A stretch of DNA of 42,281 nucleotides, taken from positions 1 to 42,281 of the forward strand of contig JAENZE010000020.1 of the NCBI GenBank assembly GCA_016841425.1, in the 5' to 3' direction. The DNA is from Syntrophomonas sp. (GTDB lineage: Bacteria > Bacillota > Syntrophomonadia > Syntrophomonadales > Syntrophomonadaceae). Positions 2,505 to 40,720 of the stretch are shown in pieces. The stretch's first letter is position 1. Every line of letters begins with the position of its first letter. The notes under the pieces are model-generated. The model was not told the origin of the DNA. It ran no database searches and saw only the letters and a program-made list of their open reading frames with translations. A program made the position numbers and the translations under genes.

Positions 2505-2678
2505 ATGAAAATACTGTATAATACAGTAATTGCTATAGAAACGATTCAAAGATTGGAGCAATATATTGAAAGAGCCCTGGTATCAGCAGAGCCAGCTGGC
2601 AAACAATATATAGATAAAAATCATATTACGGAACAGGCTCTCAATCAATTTCTGGAACGGGTGGAGAAGGAACTGTAA
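2505..2678 (+). CDS. Small hypothetical protein (57 aa)
   Basis: I do not recognise the family. The start at ATG 2505 is chosen because GGAGGGAG lies just upstream; an in-frame ATG at 2460 has no such site. The product begins MKILYNTVIAIETIQRLEQY and is mostly predicted helix, with heptad-like leucine/isoleucine spacing and a charged C-terminus (FLERVEKEL). It has no signal peptide and no cysteines. It sits alone between two look-alike nested hairpins (2263-2308 and 2708-2751), so it is probably a monocistronic unit. Coding is supported by the strong ribosome binding site and clean termination, not by homology. Confidence 0.55.
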   Translation: MKILYNTVIAIETIQRLEQYIERALVSAEPAGKQYIDKNHITEQALNQFLERVEKEL

Positions 2679-2707
2679 AAGTACTGCTCAGATAATGAAT
2701 AGGATAA

Positions 2708-2751
2708 AAGAGGCTGCACCGAAGTCCAAAGCGGACAGAGGGCAGCCTCTT
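2708..2751 (+). terminator. Nested double hairpin after the 57-aa gene (element E2)
   Basis: AAGAGGCTGC (2708-2717) and GCAGCCTCTT (2742-2751) are perfectly complementary over 10 bp. GTCC (2724-2727) and GGAC (2733-2736) form an inner stem. The tail CTTGTTTAAAA is U-rich. It matches E1 in stem order, loop sizes and several bases, with compensating changes. Confidence 0.65.
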
Positions 2752-2997
2752 CTTGTTTAAAAATAATAGGGAGGAGGAGTTCATGAGCTGGCATTAGAGA
2801 CTGGATGAAATGCTGGTTTATTGCGTCTATTATATCTAGTATGATTAATATACTGGGACGGATTATTAAAGATGCAGAAGTCATATATACTGCCAGGACA
2901 TTAGAAATCAGACTGACCGGTGTAATAATATGGTTTCGATCCATCGGGTATAATATTTAACATCTGAGGTGTATTTTTGTAGAAGAGGTACTAGTCT
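2752..2997 (+). other. Intergenic stretch with an abortive start and a weak 51-codon frame
   Basis: A very strong ribosome binding site (GGGAGGAGGAG, about 2769-2779) precedes ATG 2783, but that frame stops after four codons (MSWH). A second frame, ATG 2805 to stop 2960 (51 codons, hydrophobic centre), has no ribosome binding site of its own. This may be a broken small gene or a leader for the RMD1-family gene at 2998. I cannot support a product. Confidence 0.25.
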
Positions 2998-4065
2998 ATG
3001 TATGCCATGCATTTTTATCGGATATATGAAACTTCCGGGTCATTTGATTTGAATCAACTGGAAATCAGTCTGCCCGGGAGTGGACATAGTTACTCCAGGA
3101 CTGGATTATCCAGGGTGAAAACCAAGTCTATACAGATGGAAGTTCTGCCCCTGCTTCTCAAGTTGGGGACTGGATCTGTAGAAAAAGGCGGATACCACCT
3201 GGAGATGGACGTACAGGCCAGAATTTATGATATTGGTGCTATTAGTATTTGTCTGAGCTATTTCAGTTCTGCCGATGATAAGTTGAATCTCGAAGAACTG
3301 GCATTGATTTTTGCGGGGCAGGAAGGAATGGACACCTTATTTGAGGAAAAGCTCGGGATCATACATTCTATTCTGAAGATATGTGTTAAAGATCTGATAA
3401 TGGACAAAAATTACTACGAAGACTACACCATCTACTATATTAGCAAGCCCTCAGAGATTGAAGATCCTGTATCACTGCTGATGGGAGAAAAAGCAGATTT
3501 CAGTCCTCTAATCAAAGAGCAGGTTTTAAGTAACCGTCTAAGTTACAGTATTGAGGATTATGTGATAATAACCTGGGATACAGCTCTAATTTGTGATCCG
3601 GAATCAGCCAGTGACCTGAGAGATTTAATAGAGTTTGCCAATGTCCAGCTGCTTGAACTGAGGTACTATGATACTGAACTGAGCAAGCATATGGATAAGA
3701 TGTACGATGATATTGAGATTGCTGACAAGAAGAGCCGATTCTGGCGATTTAGACACTATCAAAATATTATGACTGCATTGATGGAACTCATAGCAGACCT
3801 GACTGAGGTTACAGAGAAGATAGGAAATCTCATTAAAATCACCGAAGATGTCTATTATGCCCGGGTATATCAGACCGCCTTAAAGGTTCTGCGCACTGCA
3901 CAGTGGAACGACAGCGTAGAACGAAAGCTGCAGGTAATACAGCGAAATTATACTCTGCTGAGTAACGAAGTAAATGTACGGCATTCTAACTTCTTGGAAT
4001 GGATTATCATCATTCTTATAGCCCTTGAGTTTGGATTTGCTATTCTGGAAGCTGTTCTGAGATAG
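2998..4065 (+). CDS. RMD1/DUF155 family protein with C-terminal membrane anchor
   Basis: The 355-aa product fits the RMD1/RMND1/Sif2 family (DUF155, COG1723). The central block around residues 190-230 (EDYVIITWDTALICDPES followed by DLIEFANVQLLELRYYD) and the C-terminal NVRHSNFLEW segment followed by one hydrophobic helix (about 333-351) are typical. Eukaryotic members are anchored in mitochondrial or other organelle membranes; the bacterial function is not established. The N-terminal 150 residues are soluble and variable. An AGAGG site lies upstream of ATG 2998, and ATG 3007 is an alternative. There is no close downstream partner: a 607-bp gap follows. Confidence 0.75.
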   Translation: MYAMHFYRIYETSGSFDLNQLEISLPGSGHSYSRTGLSRVKTKSIQMEVLPLLLKLGTGSVEKGGYHLEMDVQARIYDIGAISICLSYFSSADDKLNLEELALIFAGQEGMDTLFEEKLGIIHSILKICVKDLIMDKNYYEDYTIYYISKPSEIEDPVSLLMGEKADFSPLIKEQVLSNRLSYSIEDYVIITWDTALICDPESASDLRDLIEFANVQLLELRYYDTELSKHMDKMYDDIEIADKKSRFWRFRHYQNIMTALMELIADLTEVTEKIGNLIKITEDVYYARVYQTALKVLRTAQWNDSVERKLQVIQRNYTLLSNEVNVRHSNFLEWIIIILIALEFGFAILEAVLR

Positions 4066-4534
4066 ATGGAAGCGACTCACATACTCGCAGACAATGGTAT
4101 ATCCCTTCGACCTTGCCGGACACCATAGCAGGTACTCTTCCCCTTCCTGCAGAGCCCGGAATTACTAGAGGGTTAAATTGCATGTAATACCTTGACTGTT
4201 TAAAAAGCCTCTTATTGCTGCCATATAAAATAGCACTCGTTCTCATACTAGCCAGAATTCAATTTTCCTGATACATATACCAGGTATTTCGTCATACTTT
4301 CACCCTAAGATAAACGGGGCCCGAGTTTTGATCCAGGGACCAGGAGATATCAAAACTTATCTGCTCATATTTCATTTTATTGCATTTAACTGTGCAAAAA
4401 ATGTGACACTGAATCTGCAGACCGGGTGGTAATAACAGCAGAATAGACAATTACTGCATAGCAAAAGCCGCAAAAGGGATAATTCCGGAGAGAGACCAGA
4501 GCCATTATAGTGTATCTTTAGATCCCAAACTCCA
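4066..4534 (+). other. Long upstream region of the acyl-CoA operon
   Basis: I find no gene: the open frames on both strands lack ribosome binding sites and protein-like composition. This is where activator sites for the sigma-54 promoter at 4535 would be expected. CTGC/GCAG arms and TGCA repeats are present between about 4390 and 4480, but none forms a convincing pair of identical palindromes, so I do not assign an enhancer. Confidence 0.4.
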
Positions 4535-18450: not shown

Positions 18451-18493
18451 CTGTTGAATGGGATTATCTTTACCAGGAAAAGGAGAAGCAAAA

Positions 18494-19339
18494 ATGGAAA
18501 TAGCTGTTGCAAGCGGCAAGGGAGGTACGGGCAAGACCCTGGTGGCGACCTGTCTGGCCAGGGTTCTTGCTGACTATAATCCGGTATTAGTCGATGCCGA
18601 TGTAGAAGAACCCAACGCCGGGCTGGTTATATCTCATCAACCTGTAAATATCCGGCCAGCCTTTCGTCCGGTACCATCAATTGACATGAAGAGCTGTACT
18701 CTGTGCGGCAAATGTGCCGAGTTATGCCGTTTTAATGCACTGGTGGTACTTCCTGGCGAAGTGATGGTCTTCACTGAATTGTGCCATTCTTGTGGACTTT
18801 GCGCTTACATTTGCCCAGAAAATGCCATTAACGAAGCAAACCATAAAATAGGAGTCATAGAAGAATCTGCTTTGCTCAGCGGAGGACATTTAATTACTGG
18901 CAGGCTATTAGTGGGCGAAGTCCAGAGTCCTCCTTTGATCAAAACAGCCCGGGAGAGCAAGAGGCAGGACAGTGAATACCGGGTGGTAGACTGCCCGCCG
19001 GGAACCACCTGTCCCGCCATAGAATCTATACGGGATAGTGATTTTTGCCTGCTGGTGACCGAGCCATCTTTGTTTGGTGCACATGACCTGGAACTATCTA
19101 TCTCTGCAACCAAATTGCTAGGTGTTCGTACGGGCATAATTATTAACCGCTGGCAAGGGGATGATGGAGATATAGGAATCCTAGCCCGTGCAGAGGATAT
19201 TCCCATCCTGGAGCGCATACCCTACAGCATGGAACTGGCTAAATCCTATGCCCGAGGAGGAAACCCCCTGGATGCTATGCCGGAGCTGCACGGGATACTG
19301 GAAAAAATAATTGAAGAAGTGAAGGAGAGGGTAGTGTGA
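18494..19339 (+). CDS. MinD-superfamily ATPase with inserted 2x[4Fe-4S] ferredoxin domain (first)
   Basis: The 281-aa product has a deviant Walker A 'SGKGGTGKT' (7-15). An inserted bacterial-ferredoxin domain carries Cys68/71/74/78 and Cys97/100/103/107, and 'VVDCPPGTTCPAI' marks the switch region. This is the COG1149 ATPase found in pairs in the ORP complex of sulfate reducers and in many anaerobes. Members probably load or use Fe-S or mixed-metal clusters with ATP. ATG 18494 has AAGGAGAAG upstream; an in-frame extension to 18458 has no good site. Its last codons overlap the second ATPase. Confidence 0.9.
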   Translation: MEIAVASGKGGTGKTLVATCLARVLADYNPVLVDADVEEPNAGLVISHQPVNIRPAFRPVPSIDMKSCTLCGKCAELCRFNALVVLPGEVMVFTELCHSCGLCAYICPENAINEANHKIGVIEESALLSGGHLITGRLLVGEVQSPPLIKTARESKRQDSEYRVVDCPPGTTCPAIESIRDSDFCLLVTEPSLFGAHDLELSISATKLLGVRTGIIINRWQGDDGDIGILARAEDIPILERIPYSMELAKSYARGGNPLDAMPELHGILEKIIEEVKERVV

Positions 19340-20211
19340 AAGAGCTTTTGGTTCTCAGTGGTAAGGGAGGAACCGGGAAAACTTCTCTCACTGCTTCATT
19401 TGTATACCTGGCCGATAAGTGCATCGCCTGTGATTATGATGTTGATGCACCTAATCTGCCCATTCTTCTTAAGCCTGATGCTTCTGAGGGACACGAGTTC
19501 AGTTCCGGTTTAACTGCCGATTTAAATAAGGATATCTGTATAGATTGTGGGTTGTGCCGTGATATCTGTCGTTTTGAAGCGATTAGCAACGAATACGAGA
19601 TTTCAACCTTATCCTGTGAAGGCTGCGGCTTTTGCGCTGAGGTCTGCCCGGTGGAAGCCATAGCAATGCAGGAAAGACCATCAGGTAGGTGGTTCGCGAG
19701 CAACTCTGGTACCAATGGGAAAATGATTCCCCTGTTTCATGCTGAATTGCGACCAGGTGAGGAAAACTCGGGCAAACTAGTAGCACAGGTCAAAAGTGCT
19801 GCCCGCCAGAAAGCTCAAGAAGAAGGGTATCCATTATTAATATCAGATGGTTCGCCGGGGATTGGCTGTCCGGTTATATCTTCCCTGGTTGAAACAACTC
19901 TGGTTGTTATAGTGACTGAGCCCAGTGTTTCCGGATATCATGACTTAAAACGGGTACAGGAATTACTTGATTTAAGAGGAGTTAAAAGTATACTGCTTAT
20001 CAACAAGGCGGATATTGATTCGAAAGCGGCAGAAAATATGGAACAATGGGCCCGGGAAAACGGTATACCCTGCGCGGGCAAGCTGCCTTACAGTCCCGAG
20101 TTGGCGGCTGCGGTATCGGTGGGCGAAGTACCGGTGAGCAGGAAAGAACTGCATGACCTGATTTTGCCGGTATGGCAAAAGATTATGCAAACCATGGAGG
20201 TGCTGGAATAA
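19336..20211 (+). CDS. MinD-superfamily ATPase with inserted 2x[4Fe-4S] ferredoxin domain (second)
   Basis: The 291-aa paralogue of the preceding protein starts at GTG 19336, overlapping the previous stop by 4 nt, with AAGGAGAGG just upstream. Walker A 'SGKGGTGKT' is at residues 8-16, and the ferredoxin insert has Cys68/71/74/78 and Cys94/97/100/104, nearly the same spacing as its partner. 'ISDGSPGIGCPVI' matches the switch region. Such tandem pairs are thought to work as heterodimers. A ~50-residue block after the ferredoxin domain ('RPSGRWFASNSGTNGKMIPLFHAEL') is conserved in form between the two copies, probably the client-facing surface. Confidence 0.9.
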   Translation: MKELLVLSGKGGTGKTSLTASFVYLADKCIACDYDVDAPNLPILLKPDASEGHEFSSGLTADLNKDICIDCGLCRDICRFEAISNEYEISTLSCEGCGFCAEVCPVEAIAMQERPSGRWFASNSGTNGKMIPLFHAELRPGEENSGKLVAQVKSAARQKAQEEGYPLLISDGSPGIGCPVISSLVETTLVVIVTEPSVSGYHDLKRVQELLDLRGVKSILLINKADIDSKAAENMEQWARENGIPCAGKLPYSPELAAAVSVGEVPVSRKELHDLILPVWQKIMQTMEVLE

Positions 20212-22333: not shown

Positions 22334-23614
22334 CTACTTGCCAGTGGCAGCAAGATTCTTATCATCCTGTTGGTCAGGCGAGTTGTCACATTTGATAATC
22401 CGGTTTTCCCAGGTGCGGATCGTAAGTTCCTCATCATCCAGAGCTAGAATATAATCAGGAAGCAGAGGTGTTTTCCCATAACCCTGCGGTGCATTGATAA
22501 TATAAGTGGGGATGGCTAATCCAGAGGTATAACCCCTCAAGTTTTCCATAATGTCCAAACCCGTATCAATACTGGTCATAAAGTGAGCCGTACCCTTCAC
22601 CTGCTTGGCATGGAAAATATAATAGGGACGAACTCTTATCTTGAGCAGTTCCTGGTTCATTTTCTTCATAATATGGGGTTGGTCATTAATTTCCTTCAAT
22701 AGCACCGCCTGGTTACCCAGAACTACTCCTGCCTTTATCAAACGATCACAAGCTTTTTTTGCTTCCGGGGTGACTTCCAGGGGAGAATTAAACTGGGTAT
22801 TGATATACAGCGGCTCATGTCGGGCAAAAACCGCACACAACTCCTGGGTGATCCTCTGAGGCAGGGTAACTGGAGTTCTAGTTCCCAGTCTTTTAATTTC
22901 AACGTGCTCCATATTGTCCAACTCACTGAGCAGCCAATCCAAGACCGAGTTGCTCAACATCAAGGCATCTCCGCCGGTTATCAACACATCCCGAATTTCC
23001 TTATTATTTCTGATATAATCTAGTGCCAGTACAAGATTTGCCATGCTGGCATGGGTATCCTTTTGCTCGAAATTACGGCGTCTCTGGCAGTGCCGGCAGT
23101 ACATACCACACTGATTGGTCACGTTAATAATCAAGCGGTCTGGATATCTCCTGGTTATGGTAGGTGCTGGACAGGTATCAGCTTCTCCCATGGGATCTTC
23201 ATAACCACTATCGTCTTGCAGTTCCCTGATATCTGGCACTGATTGTTTATATATAGGGGAATTTTTATAATCAGCAATATCAATTAGACTTAAATAATAA
23301 GGGGAAATAGCCCAACGAAAATGCCGGGATATCTCTGCTATTTCCTCGATTTCGAAATCCTTTAAAGGAATCAGATCTTTAAGCGTTTGCACATCACTTA
23401 TCCGGTGCTTCATCTGCCATCCCCAATTATTCCAATCAGATTCCTTAGCATTGAAATATTTCATGATATTATCTTTGTTTTTCCAGCTGCGTTCTTTCGC
23501 TCTAAAGCCAGTCTCTATGCTCGCTTCAATGTCTAAATAATCCTGGATGCGAGATTTTAATTCCCCGGCCCTCTCCAAGCCAGCTGCATGTTCTAAGCTG
23601 TAGTTTTTTGGCAT
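22334..23614 (-). CDS. eam: Glutamate 2,3-aminomutase (radical SAM, PLP)
   Basis: The 426-aa product is in the lysine 2,3-aminomutase family. The radical-SAM cluster motif is 'CGMYCRHC' (Cys169, Cys173, Cys176) and the PLP lysine is Lys381 in 'GYGKTP'. Two residues that separate the families favour glutamate: the lysine-binding Asp pair of lysine aminomutase is replaced by Lys337 ('YIFHAK') and Asn374 ('YIINAPQG'), as described for clostridial glutamate 2,3-aminomutase. The product would be beta-glutamate, a compatible solute. No beta-lysine acetyltransferase gene is adjacent, which also argues against lysine. AAGGAGG lies 10 bases before the start. A c-di-AMP riboswitch occupies its leader. 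Confidence 0.88.
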   Translation of the reverse strand: MPKNYSLEHAAGLERAGELKSRIQDYLDIEASIETGFRAKERSWKNKDNIMKYFNAKESDWNNWGWQMKHRISDVQTLKDLIPLKDFEIEEIAEISRHFRWAISPYYLSLIDIADYKNSPIYKQSVPDIRELQDDSGYEDPMGEADTCPAPTITRRYPDRLIINVTNQCGMYCRHCQRRRNFEQKDTHASMANLVLALDYIRNNKEIRDVLITGGDALMLSNSVLDWLLSELDNMEHVEIKRLGTRTPVTLPQRITQELCAVFARHEPLYINTQFNSPLEVTPEAKKACDRLIKAGVVLGNQAVLLKEINDQPHIMKKMNQELLKIRVRPYYIFHAKQVKGTAHFMTSIDTGLDIMENLRGYTSGLAIPTYIINAPQGYGKTPLLPDYILALDDEELTIRTWENRIIKCDNSPDQQDDKNLAATGK

Positions 23615-23865
23615 AGTAAAAGTCCTCCTTCGATAAGATTTGGCATCAAGTCCAGCTTTCTTGAAAACTGAAATTAATTTTAATTGATATAATATTAATT
23701 TCTTTACCTTTAGAGATTGCTCACAATTGACTTTCCATCAGACGCAGGGACAGAAACAAGATTATAGGTGCTTATAATGAAGCCATGTATTATCCTGCAC
23801 AGGTAAAGCAAAATATACCGTATCAAAATGTACATCCAATATATACCAACTAATGTATGGAATAA

Positions 23866-23920
23866 GAAAAGCTTGAGATGATTGTTCTGGAATAAATATT
23901 AACTACTCATCCAACTTTTC
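23866..23920 (-). promoter_or_regulatory. Possible expression-platform hairpin after the riboswitch aptamer
   Basis: Read leftward, GAAAAG-TTG-GATG (from 23920) can pair with CATC-CAA-CTTTTC (to 23866), 13 bp with two single-base bulges and a ~27-nt loop, followed by a U-rich CTTTTCTTATT. It begins almost directly after the aptamer, where a terminator would lie. The stem is AT-rich, so the assignment is tentative. Confidence 0.35.
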
Positions 23921-23921
23921 C

Positions 23922-24040
23922 TGTACTGCCTACGAGGTTAGCTGACGGATTCGGACCAGGAAGCCCTACCAGTAACCTGGATTCACCCCATAAAATGGTT
24001 CCCCCGTTTGCTCCATCGGGCGACGCAGCAATTCGGCACA
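23922..24040 (-). promoter_or_regulatory. c-di-AMP riboswitch (ydaO/yuaA class) upstream of eam
   Basis: Read on the minus strand, the conserved ydaO blocks occur in order: GGGGGAACC, GGGGTGAATCC, AGGGCTTCC, CCGAATCCGTCAGCTAACC, then TCGTAGGC closing against TGTGCC at the 5' end. These match the c-di-AMP aptamer consensus closely, including the nearly invariant CCGTCAGCTAACCTCGTAGGC-type 3' segment. The only leftward gene is eam, whose start is 307 nt further on. ydaO RNAs usually switch expression off when c-di-AMP is high, and their targets are typically potassium and osmolyte genes. Confidence 0.93.
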
Positions 24041-24083
24041 AATTGAAAAATAATACTGTTAAATATTATTCGCTTGTATATAT

Positions 24084-24113
24084 ATTATAATAGTTTACCG
24101 CTGATTGTGTCAA
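24084..24113 (-). promoter_or_regulatory. Sigma-A promoter for the riboswitch-eam transcript
   Basis: On the minus strand TTGACA (24108-24113) and TATAAT (24084-24089) are spaced 18 bp. Both hexamers are consensus. Transcription would start near 24077, about 37 nt before the aptamer. Confidence 0.8.
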
Positions 24114-24963: not shown

Positions 24964-25617
24964 CTACTTATCTTTTTCTATTCGAGTGATCCATAACGAA
25001 TGGCGGTGTCTAGCATAATCAAGTGAAATTTTACCGTTGAACATGCTTGGAAACAAAGGTCGATTATCCTTGATTAGAAAAGCCAGTAAATGTACTACTA
25101 TAGAAATTAACAGTATTACGGTAAGAATGTTATGCACCTGGGTAGCCCAAAAACTAATCTGCAGGGGGATATGAGCATCAGGCAGGTTCTTCAAAATCTT
25201 GATTAAGCCTGTAATAATCAGACCTGCAATGGATAGTCCGGTAACGGCAAAGGCCATTCTTTGCTCTGCCAGATACTTATCATTTTCCGGTTCTTTGGCC
25301 AATCCTAATAAGGAGGCAAATATTATCAGTGATTCTTTAAAATCTCCCTTTCGAGGAAGGATATCGGTTTTTTTGCTTAAAAGCAGATAACCTGCATAAA
25401 AGAAACTGATAAAAATTAACACCATTGCTGCATAATAGTGAACATTAAGCGTAACCAGGTAATTGCTGGACCATTCCAAACCAGGTACTTGATCAATAAA
25501 ATATCTTTTGTAAATTGGCATCTGACCAAAACCAGTAAAAAATAGTGCAAAAATTGAAAGGGCAGTAATCCAGTGAGTAAAACGTACTTGGACACTATGC
25601 CTCGGAATTCTCATCAT
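24964..25617 (-). CDS. Membrane cytochrome b subunit (formate dehydrogenase gamma-like)
   Basis: The 217-aa protein has four to five membrane helices and resembles the di-heme cytochrome b561/FdnI-like subunits of membrane oxidoreductases. Candidate heme ligands are His in 'RFTHWITALS' (about residue 15), 'NVHYYAAM', 'TQVHNIL' and 'SIVVHLLAF'. I start at ATG 25617 (AGGAG 6 bases before); a TTG six bases upstream is the longer option. It overlaps the end of the Fe-S gene by 23 nt, so the two are co-translated. It should pass electrons between the Fe-S subunit and the quinone pool. Confidence 0.82.
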   Translation of the reverse strand: MMRIPRHSVQVRFTHWITALSIFALFFTGFGQMPIYKRYFIDQVPGLEWSSNYLVTLNVHYYAAMVLIFISFFYAGYLLLSKKTDILPRKGDFKESLIIFASLLGLAKEPENDKYLAEQRMAFAVTGLSIAGLIITGLIKILKNLPDAHIPLQISFWATQVHNILTVILLISIVVHLLAFLIKDNRPLFPSMFNGKISLDYARHRHSLWITRIEKDK

Positions 25618-26602
25618 TATCAACTCCTGTCATGGTTTTATATACGCTCAGTCCCGCGGCTAATAAACCAGCGAAGGGAGCGATCAACATGCTTCTGGCC
25701 ATACCTGCTGGTTTGTCCAAAATGTTAGCAACTCCAACTGGCATGCCAGGTTTGCCAGGCTTTCCGTCAACCTCCTGCTCAATGATAGCATCATGAATAG
25801 CATTAAAGGGTATCAGCGATAAATAATAGGTAGAGGTACCGCCATTTTCAAGATCTCCATAAAGGTATCCACCCTTATCCTTAACCCAGTTTTTTGCATA
25901 GGACTGCATATCCTTTTTAGGTCCGAAGCTAATCGCATTATTAGGGCAGGCAGAAATACAGGCGGGTTCCTGGCCTTTTTGAACTAGATCGTAACACAGG
26001 TCACATTTATACATTACTCCACCGCCAGCATACTTTGGTACCACTTCCTGGTACAGTCCAATGCCTGCCTGCCGCTGTGGTATCTGCCACGGACACACAT
26101 CTCGGCACTTGGCACCGCCAAAACATCCATCCGGGTTGATTACAACCGGGCCTTCCGGCATTTTCTCATTTACTCCAAAGGGACAGAGTGAAGAACAGGG
26201 GGGATTATCACAATGTAAACACCTTCGCGGTACATGTACTTGATGTATATTACCCTCGTGTTCCACCTGAAGGTGCTGAACATAAGTCCAGTTATAGGGG
26301 GTTAGACGGTTGATTAAGTTCTGCTTATCTGACCAGTCTTCATGTTTGGGCTGCGGCCAGTAGTCCATGATAGGTTTTTCTGGTTGGGGAAATTTATCTT
26401 GATTCTTTTTTCTGCAGGCAGATACACACCGGGGAGTGTCCAGACCATGACACCCATCACACTTGGTTACATCTATAATGGTGGCATATTCATCTGTGGT
26501 ATTAAATGCAGCTGCCGTCTTATTAACACCGCTCAGTACTGCGGTGGCAGCAATACCAGAATAGGCAGCTCGCTTTATAAAATTTCTTCTGGAAATAGAC
26601 AT
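25595..26602 (-). CDS. Tat-signal four-cluster Fe-S electron-transfer subunit
   Basis: The 335-aa protein starts with a Tat signal (SRRNFIK at 4-10, then a hydrophobic stretch to ~32), so it is exported folded. It then carries four ferredoxin-like cysteine groups: 'CDGCHGLDTPRCVSAC' from Cys48, 'CLHCDNPPCSSLCP', 'CFGGAKCRDVCP' and 'CDLCYDLVQKGQEPACISACP', as in HybA/FdnH/DmsB-type subunits. A C-terminal hydrophobic helix (about 305-325) anchors it. AAAGGAGG precedes the start. With the overlapping cytochrome b it would form an electron-transfer module on the outer face of the membrane. No molybdopterin or other catalytic subunit is encoded in the window. Confidence 0.88.
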   Translation of the reverse strand: MSISRRNFIKRAAYSGIAATAVLSGVNKTAAAFNTTDEYATIIDVTKCDGCHGLDTPRCVSACRKKNQDKFPQPEKPIMDYWPQPKHEDWSDKQNLINRLTPYNWTYVQHLQVEHEGNIHQVHVPRRCLHCDNPPCSSLCPFGVNEKMPEGPVVINPDGCFGGAKCRDVCPWQIPQRQAGIGLYQEVVPKYAGGGVMYKCDLCYDLVQKGQEPACISACPNNAISFGPKKDMQSYAKNWVKDKGGYLYGDLENGGTSTYYLSLIPFNAIHDAIIEQEVDGKPGKPGMPVGVANILDKPAGMARSMLIAPFAGLLAAGLSVYKTMTGVDNDENSEA

Positions 26603-37723: not shown

Positions 37724-38087
37724 CCAGCCTTCCTTATCTTTGTAAGGGGAATAATTTTAAATAATCTCCCTCGAGTTTACTTAATCGTCAGATTTTGAAT
37801 GCCTACCCACCTTGGTTCTATTCTAAAGGAAAGTTTACCAGTTGTTTATATACTGCAGATATGGTTGTATTATGAAGGGAGCAATAATATGACCGATAGT
37901 TTAAATCCAGCTACAGGAATGACCTATAAAAAATGCCATAGGTCCTAGGGGAAAAATGTGGATTTACAGATACCTGGTAATACTTTATCGTATAAAAAAA
38001 TAAAAAAATACCTGCCTTAACAAGGATTTAGTACAACTTATGTAGAATATTAACCAGGGACAAAAAGAATATAATATATACAATTTT
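37724..38087. other. Long intergenic region before the surface-protein leader
   Basis: Apart from the 19-aa frame at 37889-37948 and a GACCTAT/ATAGGTC hairpin (37921-37944) that overlaps its end, I see only AT-rich DNA. TATAAT at 38070-38075 may be the -10 for the structured leader; its -35 is weak. Confidence 0.4.
37889..37948 (+). CDS. Possible 19-aa peptide resembling a SEC-C end
   Basis: ATG 37889 has AAGGGAG 8 bases upstream and reads MTDSLNPATGMTYKKCHRS before TAG. The 'TGMTYKKCH' part resembles the last half of a SEC-C motif (SGKKYKKCH). It could be a real micro-peptide, a leader peptide whose end overlaps a hairpin, or the remnant of a lost gene. Confidence 0.2.
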   Translation: MTDSLNPATGMTYKKCHRS

Positions 38088-38234
38088 CGAGCCTCAGGAC
38101 CTAATGCCTTAGGTAATGGTCCCTAGGCCGATAGGGTATAGTTGGAAACGGCTGTGCCTCCCAGTGCGGAAAGGAAATTGGCAATTTTTCTACGTATGCG
38201 TCTGGGCTAAACTCTTGTGGGTTTAGCTTTTTTA
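38088..38234 (+). promoter_or_regulatory. Structured leader with terminator, unknown class
   Basis: CG-A-GCCT-CA-GGACC (38088-38101) pairs with GGTCC-CT-AGGC-CG (38118-38130), a long stem with a symmetric internal loop. About 75 nt of further partly paired sequence follows (GCCG/CGGC competes with the first stem), then a terminator GCTAAAC/GTTTAGC with TTTTTT at 38206-38234. Alternative pairings ahead of a terminator suggest an attenuator or riboswitch for the surface-protein genes. I could not match it to a known aptamer. Confidence 0.45.
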
Positions 38235-38278: not shown

Positions 38279-38470
38279 TTTTTCTACAGCCTTACCCGGG
38301 CTTGAATATGAAAACTATAGATAATAAGCCATGGCTCGTAAGCAAATGAATTATTCAGTATAGGATAAGCAGAGAGGAGGTTGTGAGCGGGTCTGATTAT
38401 CAAGCATAGAGCCTAACGAGCATGCTTAATAGGGATTGTGTGGACTAGTAAAAAGGAGGGTTTTACATTG

Positions 38471-40720
38471 ATGAGGAAAAGAAATGCTAGTATGACTCTA
38501 CATACTTTTATTTTAATAGCATTGGTGATTGCTTTCAGTATGGTGATTGCCCCAGTGTCGGCTGAAGCTGGGGCAGGAGACTTGACTGTCACCTTGACCG
38601 CACCTGCAGCAACCTTTGTCAGTAGTGACGATACACAGGTAGTATACCAGGTGGATGATCTGGTTGATTACCAGAATGTATCTTTGGTATGGAATTTTAG
38701 CAACGGGCTTGATGAGAATCTTGGCAACAACAAGCAGCAGGTGACTCTTAAGACATCAGGCGGAGATGTGATTGATATTAATGAAGATCAGGAACTGGTT
38801 TACACCAAGCAAAATGAACCAGTGGAACTGAGGCAGCTTGCGCTGACCATGGTTGATAACGCACTCCTACAGCCAGATACAGATTATATTGTTGAATTGG
38901 GTGCAGATATCATATCAAATAATGATAACACTCTGGGCAAGGCTTATGCCTGGAGGTTTACTACTACCGCAGAAGAGGACAGCTCTGGAGAGAGCGGACC
39001 TGTTTCCTGGCCGGATGGAAGTCAGATAACAGCGTCTAATATCACTCCCAGTTCGCTTACCCTTACCTGGACAGAGGCAGCCAATGCATCACAGTACAAA
39101 GTTTTCCAGGATGACAGTGAGATTAAGACCCTGTCCAGCAGTGTGTTGTCCTGTGATATAACGGGCCTGGCCGCTAAAACCCCATATGAATTTAAAGTTG
39201 AAGCAGGGGATGCAGCCGATGTATTTACAACTGACGGTCCGGTTGCTGCAGCAACAACCGCCGGGCAGCTTGAAATCACAGCCTATAGTCCTGCTTCTTC
39301 GGAAGTACCTGATATAGCCAAAATAGACTACCAGGTGACCGATCAGCTGGAGCCGGATGAGATTCATTTTGTCTGGGATTTCAGCAAGGGTATGGATAAA
39401 AAATTGGTAAGCAATTTGAGTAAAATTACGTTGAAGAAAAGTGATGGAACCGAGGTCAACATTGACCGGGGTTCGCTGACCCAGGCCGAGATCAGTGGTG
39501 ACATTATTGAATTAGGAGATTTCAAATATACCAAACAGGCTGAATCAGAAGTGCGCAGACTGGAATTGATCCTTACCAGCTGTACTCTGGAAGCCGGCGC
39601 TACCTATAAACTTAAATTGGCCAGTGATATTGAGGCCAATAATGGGGATAAGCTCTGGCTCAATCATCTGTGGACATTTGCTACCGTTGCTGATGTTGGT
39701 AGTTCAAACGGTGGAGACGATGGAGATGAAGGAGACACAGATACCGGGGGAGGTACTGGCACAGATACGAGTGATGCCATGACCGTAGAATTTGACGCAG
39801 TCGATTTATCTCCTGAGCATACCGAACTGTGGTTGGATTTTAGTAAAGGTATTGATGAGAACCTGAGCTCTAATGTGGGCCAGATCAAGATATATGAAGA
39901 AGATTCCGATAAATCCATATCCTATGATTACGAATATGTCAGGGAAGGCAAGACGGAAACCGGAGATAAAGTGCGCAGGTTAGTCTTATATTTAAACGAC
40001 TTGGAACCGCGCACAACTTATGAAATAGAGATCGGCGAGGATGTTACTGCCAATAATGGCAGCACGCTTGATGATGAATATATTTTTGAGTTCACTACCA
40101 AATCATCCAGTACCTCAACAGAGGAAACGGAAGAAGAAGTAATAGAAGAAGTAGTCCCTGAAACCCAATTGCCAGCAAGCCCGGCTTCTGTTAACTTGAA
40201 TGACATCAATGGGCACTGGGCTCAGATGAGTATTGAGCAACTGGTACAACAGGGAGCTATAAGCGGCTATCCAGATGGTACTTTCAAACCTGCTAAGACC
40301 ATTACCCGGGCTGAGTTTGCGTATGTTCTAGTTAAAGCTCTGGCCCTGGAAACAAAGGCTGGAAAAACCTTTGCTGATACTGCTTCTCACTGGGCCAGGG
40401 AGGCTATAGCTACAGCAGAAGGGTACGGAATAGTCAATGGTTATGACGACAACCGGTTTGGCCCGGATGACGTAATCAGCCGGGAACAAATCTGTGTAAT
40501 GCTGCAGAAGGCCTTCCAATTAACAACCGCCGGGGAGCCCAGAGCATTCAGCGACAGCGATTTTATATCCGAATGGGCTGTAAACGCAGTTTATGCTTGC
40601 TCTGCAAACAGTATTGTTTCGGGCTATGAAGATAACAGCTTCAGACCACAAAACAGTGCTACCCGTGCTGAAGCAGTCAGCATGATAGTAAGAGCACTGG
40701 CAGTAAACCCAGTGGAATAA
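38471..40720 (+). CDS. S-layer (SLH) surface protein with Ig-like and FN3 domains
   Basis: The 749-aa protein has a signal peptide (about 1-34, ending 'APVSAEA'). Three SbsA-like (Big_5) Ig domains lie at about 40-170, 275-410 and 440-550, with repeated 'LVWNFSNGLDENL', 'FVWDFSKGMDKKL' and 'ELWLDFSKGIDENL' strands. One fibronectin-type III domain lies at about 185-265, Gly/Asp- and Glu-rich linkers separate the parts, and three SLH domains (about 577-749) bind pyruvylated secondary wall polymer. ATG 38471 is chosen because AAGGAGGG lies 9 bases upstream. It sits behind tandem terminators and ahead of an ABC permease, so it may be the cell-surface part of an uptake system. Confidence 0.88.
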   Translation: MRKRNASMTLHTFILIALVIAFSMVIAPVSAEAGAGDLTVTLTAPAATFVSSDDTQVVYQVDDLVDYQNVSLVWNFSNGLDENLGNNKQQVTLKTSGGDVIDINEDQELVYTKQNEPVELRQLALTMVDNALLQPDTDYIVELGADIISNNDNTLGKAYAWRFTTTAEEDSSGESGPVSWPDGSQITASNITPSSLTLTWTEAANASQYKVFQDDSEIKTLSSSVLSCDITGLAAKTPYEFKVEAGDAADVFTTDGPVAAATTAGQLEITAYSPASSEVPDIAKIDYQVTDQLEPDEIHFVWDFSKGMDKKLVSNLSKITLKKSDGTEVNIDRGSLTQAEISGDIIELGDFKYTKQAESEVRRLELILTSCTLEAGATYKLKLASDIEANNGDKLWLNHLWTFATVADVGSSNGGDDGDEGDTDTGGGTGTDTSDAMTVEFDAVDLSPEHTELWLDFSKGIDENLSSNVGQIKIYEEDSDKSISYDYEYVREGKTETGDKVRRLVLYLNDLEPRTTYEIEIGEDVTANNGSTLDDEYIFEFTTKSSSTSTEETEEEVIEEVVPETQLPASPASVNLNDINGHWAQMSIEQLVQQGAISGYPDGTFKPAKTITRAEFAYVLVKALALETKAGKTFADTASHWAREAIATAEGYGIVNGYDDNRFGPDDVISREQICVMLQKAFQLTTAGEPRAFSDSDFISEWAVNAVYACSANSIVSGYEDNSFRPQNSATRAEAVSMIVRALAVNPVE

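Follow-up and report, generated by a model that had tools for sequence, protein, structure and literature searches.

Why does a c-di-AMP riboswitch stand in the leader of a gene for a radical-SAM aminomutase, what would it do there, and is the arrangement peculiar to one genome? The window, which is the whole 42,281-nucleotide stretch of Syntrophomonas sp. contig JAENZE010000020.1 that was analysed, raises these questions through a short series of elements on its minus strand. The nearest named relatives of the organism are metagenome genomes labelled Syntrophomonas sp., with protein identities of 87 and 85%. The elements are as follows:

24084 to 24113, minus strand: sigma-70 type promoter, TTGACA-N18-TATAAT
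23912 to 24048, minus strand: c-di-AMP (ydaO/yuaA) riboswitch aptamer, RF00379, covariance-model match
23864 to 23922, minus strand: candidate expression platform, AU-rich bulged hairpin AGGAAAAGUUGGAUGAG...CAUCUCAAGCUUUUCUU, consensus fold from 5 genomes
23615 to 23863, minus strand: remainder of the eam leader, weakly conserved in sequence
22334 to 23614, minus strand: eam, predicted glutamate 2,3-aminomutase of 426 amino acids, TIGR04368 match, single-gene unit

A covariance-model search of the window returned RF00379 at 24048-23912 of the minus strand with a score of 95.3 bits (E = 2.1e-21; gathering cut-off 38 bits). The match covers the full model, positions 1-134 of 134, with no non-standard pairs marked. 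It is the same element as the ydaO-type aptamer that a preliminary description of the sequence had placed at 23922-24040, and the Infernal search proposed there thus bears the assignment out. The consensus promoter claimed above it is likewise present, matching 12 of 12 consensus positions, and its -35 and -10 boxes show little or no variation across four further genomes from the genus. The aptamer lies in the 5′ leader, on the same strand as eam and between the promoter (24113-24084) and the start of the gene (23614). A minus-strand consensus scan from the promoter to eam found no second promoter-like site. The Shine-Dalgarno (SD) sequence of eam, AAGGAGG, occupies 23630-23624. A Na+-I aptamer (RF03071) was not found in this leader, even at a permissive threshold.

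By sequence, the open reading frame at 23614-22334 belongs to the glutamate 2,3-aminomutase family. It scores 687.4 bits against the curated NCBIfam model TIGR04368, the equivalog cut-off of which is 650 bits, and falls below the cut-offs of both the lysine (456.7 against 525.4 bits) and the arginine (357.2 against 600 bits) aminomutase models. The radical SAM motif CGMYCRHC is intact at residue 169. Lys337 and Asn374, the pair named in the preliminary description, are present and align with Asp293 and Asp330 of the solved lysine 2,3-aminomutase (LAM) structure 2a5h; a Lys/Asn pair at these positions, which from work on the C. difficile enzyme we take to be the mark of a glutamate enzyme, recurs in all 49 riboswitch-linked Eam proteins examined. 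Curated model and diagnostic residues therefore agree with the earlier prediction of a glutamate rather than a lysine enzyme. Were it a lysine 2,3-aminomutase after all, the system would simply be the published ablA one. The shared superfamily and the fact that LAM is the only solved relative speak for this, but the score below the LAM cut-off, the replacement of the lysine-binding aspartates and the presence elsewhere in the genome of two further LAM-like paralogues, which keep the Asp pair as read from their sequences, make it highly improbable. No RNA family match was found near either paralogue. Taken on its own, the identity of Eam as a lysine aminomutase was rejected on the model cut-offs and the Lys/Asn replacement.

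The gene is alone in its unit, with a convergent downstream neighbour and a divergent, Hsp20-like upstream neighbour, and inspection of 22 loci by eye found no conserved operon partner. Further along the window, two neighbouring open reading frames at 18458-20211 (plus strand) encode ParA/MinD-like ATPases with ferredoxin-type cluster segments, and an overlapping pair at 24964-26602 (minus strand) resembles a formate-dehydrogenase-type cytochrome b subunit and an iron-sulfur subunit, all scores of this pair being under the curated cut-offs. A Moco (molybdenum/tungsten cofactor) riboswitch, RF01055, is found at 38073-38192 of the plus strand (70.3 bits), upstream of a 760-residue open reading frame at 38438-40720.

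To place the eam riboswitch within its genome, we note that two diadenylate cyclase domains are encoded there and that it is one of four c-di-AMP riboswitches. Of the other three, one precedes a betaine/proline/choline ABC ATPase gene (433.7 bits; cut-off 326.6), and another an amino-acid ABC binding-protein gene with scores below the substrate-specific cut-offs. The last precedes an open reading frame without an NCBIfam match at E = 1e-20, the product of which we read from its sequence as a glycine-betaine-type binding protein. The riboswitches before the ABC ATPase gene and the amino-acid ABC binding-protein gene (L001, G000:C25, and L002, G000:C3) are followed by T-tract hairpins recognized by eye, unlike the eam leader.

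Whether the pairing extends beyond this genome was surveyed by searching whole genomes, one per species, with the Eam and RF00379 models and comparing the coordinates by script; searches over 40 genomes applied more stringent filters at the cost of some weak matches, and the riboswitch counts are accordingly lower bounds. In the class to which the window belongs, at least 36 of 40 eam genes have the aptamer immediately before them, in the same orientation and 48-440 bp away; two of the four exceptions (in G015 and G004) fall at the edge of a contig, where neither presence nor absence can be called. Elsewhere in the phylum sample, the pairing, again on one strand and within that distance, occurs for at least 63 of 133 eam genes, equivalent to 63 of 126 genomes, and about half of the genes in this second group are without a riboswitch. 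These pairings span 22 of 45 families, some of which are complete (13/13, 13/13 and 7/7) and others empty. The named contigs show the same riboswitch-eam pairing. When 82 Eam proteins, a non-random sample, were placed on a quick likelihood tree, riboswitch presence changed a minimum of four times, and such a small number of changes suggests that most cases share one old association. Chance pairing is excluded by the aptamer score together with the repeated co-location. Conservation of the RF00379-eam pairing thus reaches, at the level of sequence, deep into the phylum, and the pairing has the look of a control circuit widespread among anaerobic Firmicutes, not of a local oddity.

No Na+-I aptamer (RF03071) was found in the 63 genomes of the class. 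A locus outside the window, G219:C16 (2651-4296, minus strand), carries a Na+-I aptamer (4239-4296) in tandem with a c-di-AMP aptamer (RF00379, 4031-4182), directly followed by eam (2651-3844); the published two-input gate has this architecture, and in this case eam is the gene behind it.

The candidate platforms were compared in 49 eam leaders with known aptamer ends, for which start codons were picked by a simple SD rule. A terminator-like hairpin, defined as a hairpin with a T tract and an energy no higher than -8, separates aptamer and start codon in 29 of the 49, against 0.75 expected on shuffled leaders that preserve base composition only. The leaders bearing one include all 22 from outside the class and those of two sister families in the order. 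A different arrangement prevails closer to the window: in 11 of 15 other Syntrophomonadaceae leaders (L049, L051-L055, L057, L060, L063, L067 and L076), a pyrimidine strand after the c-di-AMP aptamer is exactly complementary both to a post-aptamer purine strand and to the SD sequence, against 0.76 expected on shuffles of the same composition-preserving kind. This three-strand arrangement is found in 0 of 34 other leaders and, judged from complementarity, points to a switch acting on translation across most of the family. Among these relatives, eam is probably held in its OFF state either through an intrinsic terminator or through a hidden Shine-Dalgarno sequence.

The genus of the window has neither a terminator-like hairpin of this kind nor the three-strand arrangement. 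In the eam leader of the window, neither a canonical GC-rich terminator nor an anti-SD of at least 5 nt was found, and the leader folds no better than its shuffles (z = -0.62). What it does carry, directly after the aptamer, is the AU-rich hairpin at 23922-23864, with 16 to 19 imperfect pairs predicted and a left arm that overlaps the 3′ end of the aptamer match. A consensus fold over five genomes yields 19 pairs, none of them compensatory, and up to two of the five sequences break some of the pairs. The hairpin segment is nevertheless the best conserved part of the leader in these genomes, with a mean pairwise identity of 0.92 compared to 0.88 for the aptamer and 0.56, then 0.37, in the 265 columns that follow, and this conservation supports a function. 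The weakly conserved leader of about 250 nt (23615-23863, minus strand) has a shorter counterpart in most other genera of the family, and no terminator-like or promoter-like site was found on its minus strand. We consider the AU-rich hairpin the likeliest platform in this genus, where it would act perhaps as a weak terminator. The bulged 13-bp hairpin of the preliminary description thus stands as a predicted structure within a conserved segment, and its role as the expression platform is that of a candidate.

Which way would the switch act? It is likely, in our judgement, that the riboswitch lowers eam expression when c-di-AMP is high. Published c-di-AMP riboswitches are OFF switches that work through a terminator (kimA) or through translation (nlpC) (PMC9960051), and in the tandem leader of Dehalobacter ablA, c-di-AMP cuts read-through to under 5% in vitro (PMC9337991). 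The OFF direction for the eam gene of the window is our best guess, by analogy with these switches and with the terminators in most related eam leaders. In such a scheme, c-di-AMP would fall upon an osmotic upshift, the ligand-free eam leader would be read through, and Eam would convert L-glutamate to β-glutamate, a slowly metabolised compatible solute; as turgor and K+ recover, c-di-AMP would rise again and eam would be shut. That c-di-AMP switches the synthesis of an osmolyte, β-glutamate, had been predicted from the window. The c-di-AMP link is now backed by the pairing in many families and by the riboswitch on a betaine-type transporter, while the osmolyte role is what we infer for the product.

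Three other readings of the control have to be weighed against this one. The ligand-bound leader might hide the eam SD, so that the riboswitch acts on translation as proposed for the sister genera. The matching pyrimidine strands of the 11 related leaders favour such a mechanism, as does the translational c-di-AMP switch known from C. glutamicum nlpC, but the corresponding pyrimidine strand of the genus, CUUUUCUU, has no exact pairing of 5 nt or more to the SD, which lies about 230 nt downstream, and we therefore regard translational control in the window as rather unlikely. Still less probable is that c-di-AMP turns eam ON. A stabilised P1 could let an outer helix with the 5′ flank tie up the purine strand at the start of the hairpin; the UUUUC and GAAAA strands are invariant in the genus, and the complementarity of the two flanks exceeds that of swapped flanks by a small margin (p = 0.006, 29 hand-drawn clusters). 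Against dinucleotide shuffles, however, the flanks give no signal for an outer helix as a general platform strand, which leaves this helix a hint only, and both the description of published c-di-AMP riboswitches as OFF and the ordinary terminators after the aptamer in related eam leaders speak against an ON switch.

The remaining alternative concerns the enzyme's purpose: Eam might serve amino-acid catabolism or supply a cell-wall or peptide precursor, with c-di-AMP tuning the balance of glutamate and nitrogen. We hold this to be unlikely, if somewhat less so than either alternative mechanism. It draws on the link of c-di-AMP to potassium and glutamate homeostasis in B. subtilis (PMC7857571) and on the osmolyte role of β-glutamate being documented mainly in methanogens, but no conserved catabolic gene was seen downstream of eam, which forms a unit of its own, and one riboswitch class is common to eam and a betaine-type transporter gene in the same genome. 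Our preferred reading remains an OFF switch on the synthesis of a compatible solute.

The best-known role of c-di-AMP is to limit the uptake of K+ and osmolytes. If the preferred reading is true, direct control by this messenger extends to compatible-solute synthesis by radical-SAM chemistry, in a large set of anaerobes the home-made osmolytes of which are little documented. The riboswitch on eam would also offer a one-gene, one-metabolite prediction and a genetic handle on β-glutamate. This compound has been reported in few bacteria (PMC1224877), has a single described reaction in KEGG and is reported at elevated levels in the gut in Parkinson's disease (PMC12502400). Control of eam by c-di-AMP was not found in the open literature, the key 2010 and 2013 surveys being outside that scope. 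Already published are the riboswitch class, the osmolyte regulon, c-di-AMP control of ablA, the sister of eam, and Na+ riboswitches associated with eam itself, and the ablA and eam precedents make the c-di-AMP-eam association less isolated than it first appeared. Aptamer class, enzyme and type of target are thus known, and it is the widespread pairing of c-di-AMP with eam that is apparently unreported. More tentatively, and with slightly less than even confidence, we suggest that c-di-AMP control of β-glutamate synthesis is an ancient means of osmoadaptation in anaerobic Firmicutes, a circuit that has gone largely unreported. β-glutamate would in that case be a main home-made solute, and the platform would have been rebuilt as terminator, SD switch or AU-rich hairpin while the aptamer was kept.

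Among known systems, the RF00379 class of B. subtilis (kimA/ydaO, ktrAB) shares with the locus a full-length aptamer, a regulon of osmotic and ion homeostasis and the expected OFF control. The target here, in contrast, is a solute-synthesising aminomutase, and the platform in the genus of the window is an AU-rich hairpin missed by terminator scans. C. glutamicum nlpC (PMC9960051) offers a precedent for the translational control that the sister genera appear to use, but its target is an actinobacterial cell-wall gene, and the leader of the window is without exact SD pairing. Both ablA and dapB are known to carry tandems of a Na+-I and a c-di-AMP aptamer (PMC9337991). The ablA tandem of Dehalobacter sp. 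CF (PMC9337991) resembles our locus in placing a c-di-AMP aptamer before a radical-SAM aminomutase whose product is a β-amino acid osmolyte or the precursor of one; it differs in its Na+ aptamer, which was found neither in the leader described here nor in the 63 class genomes, and in its enzyme, which acts on lysine where the one described here is predicted to act on glutamate. Finally, the Na+-I targets listed in PMC9337991 include eam, with β-glutamate, and these riboswitches share with the one described here the target gene and the osmotic reading, while ligand and aptamer are different.
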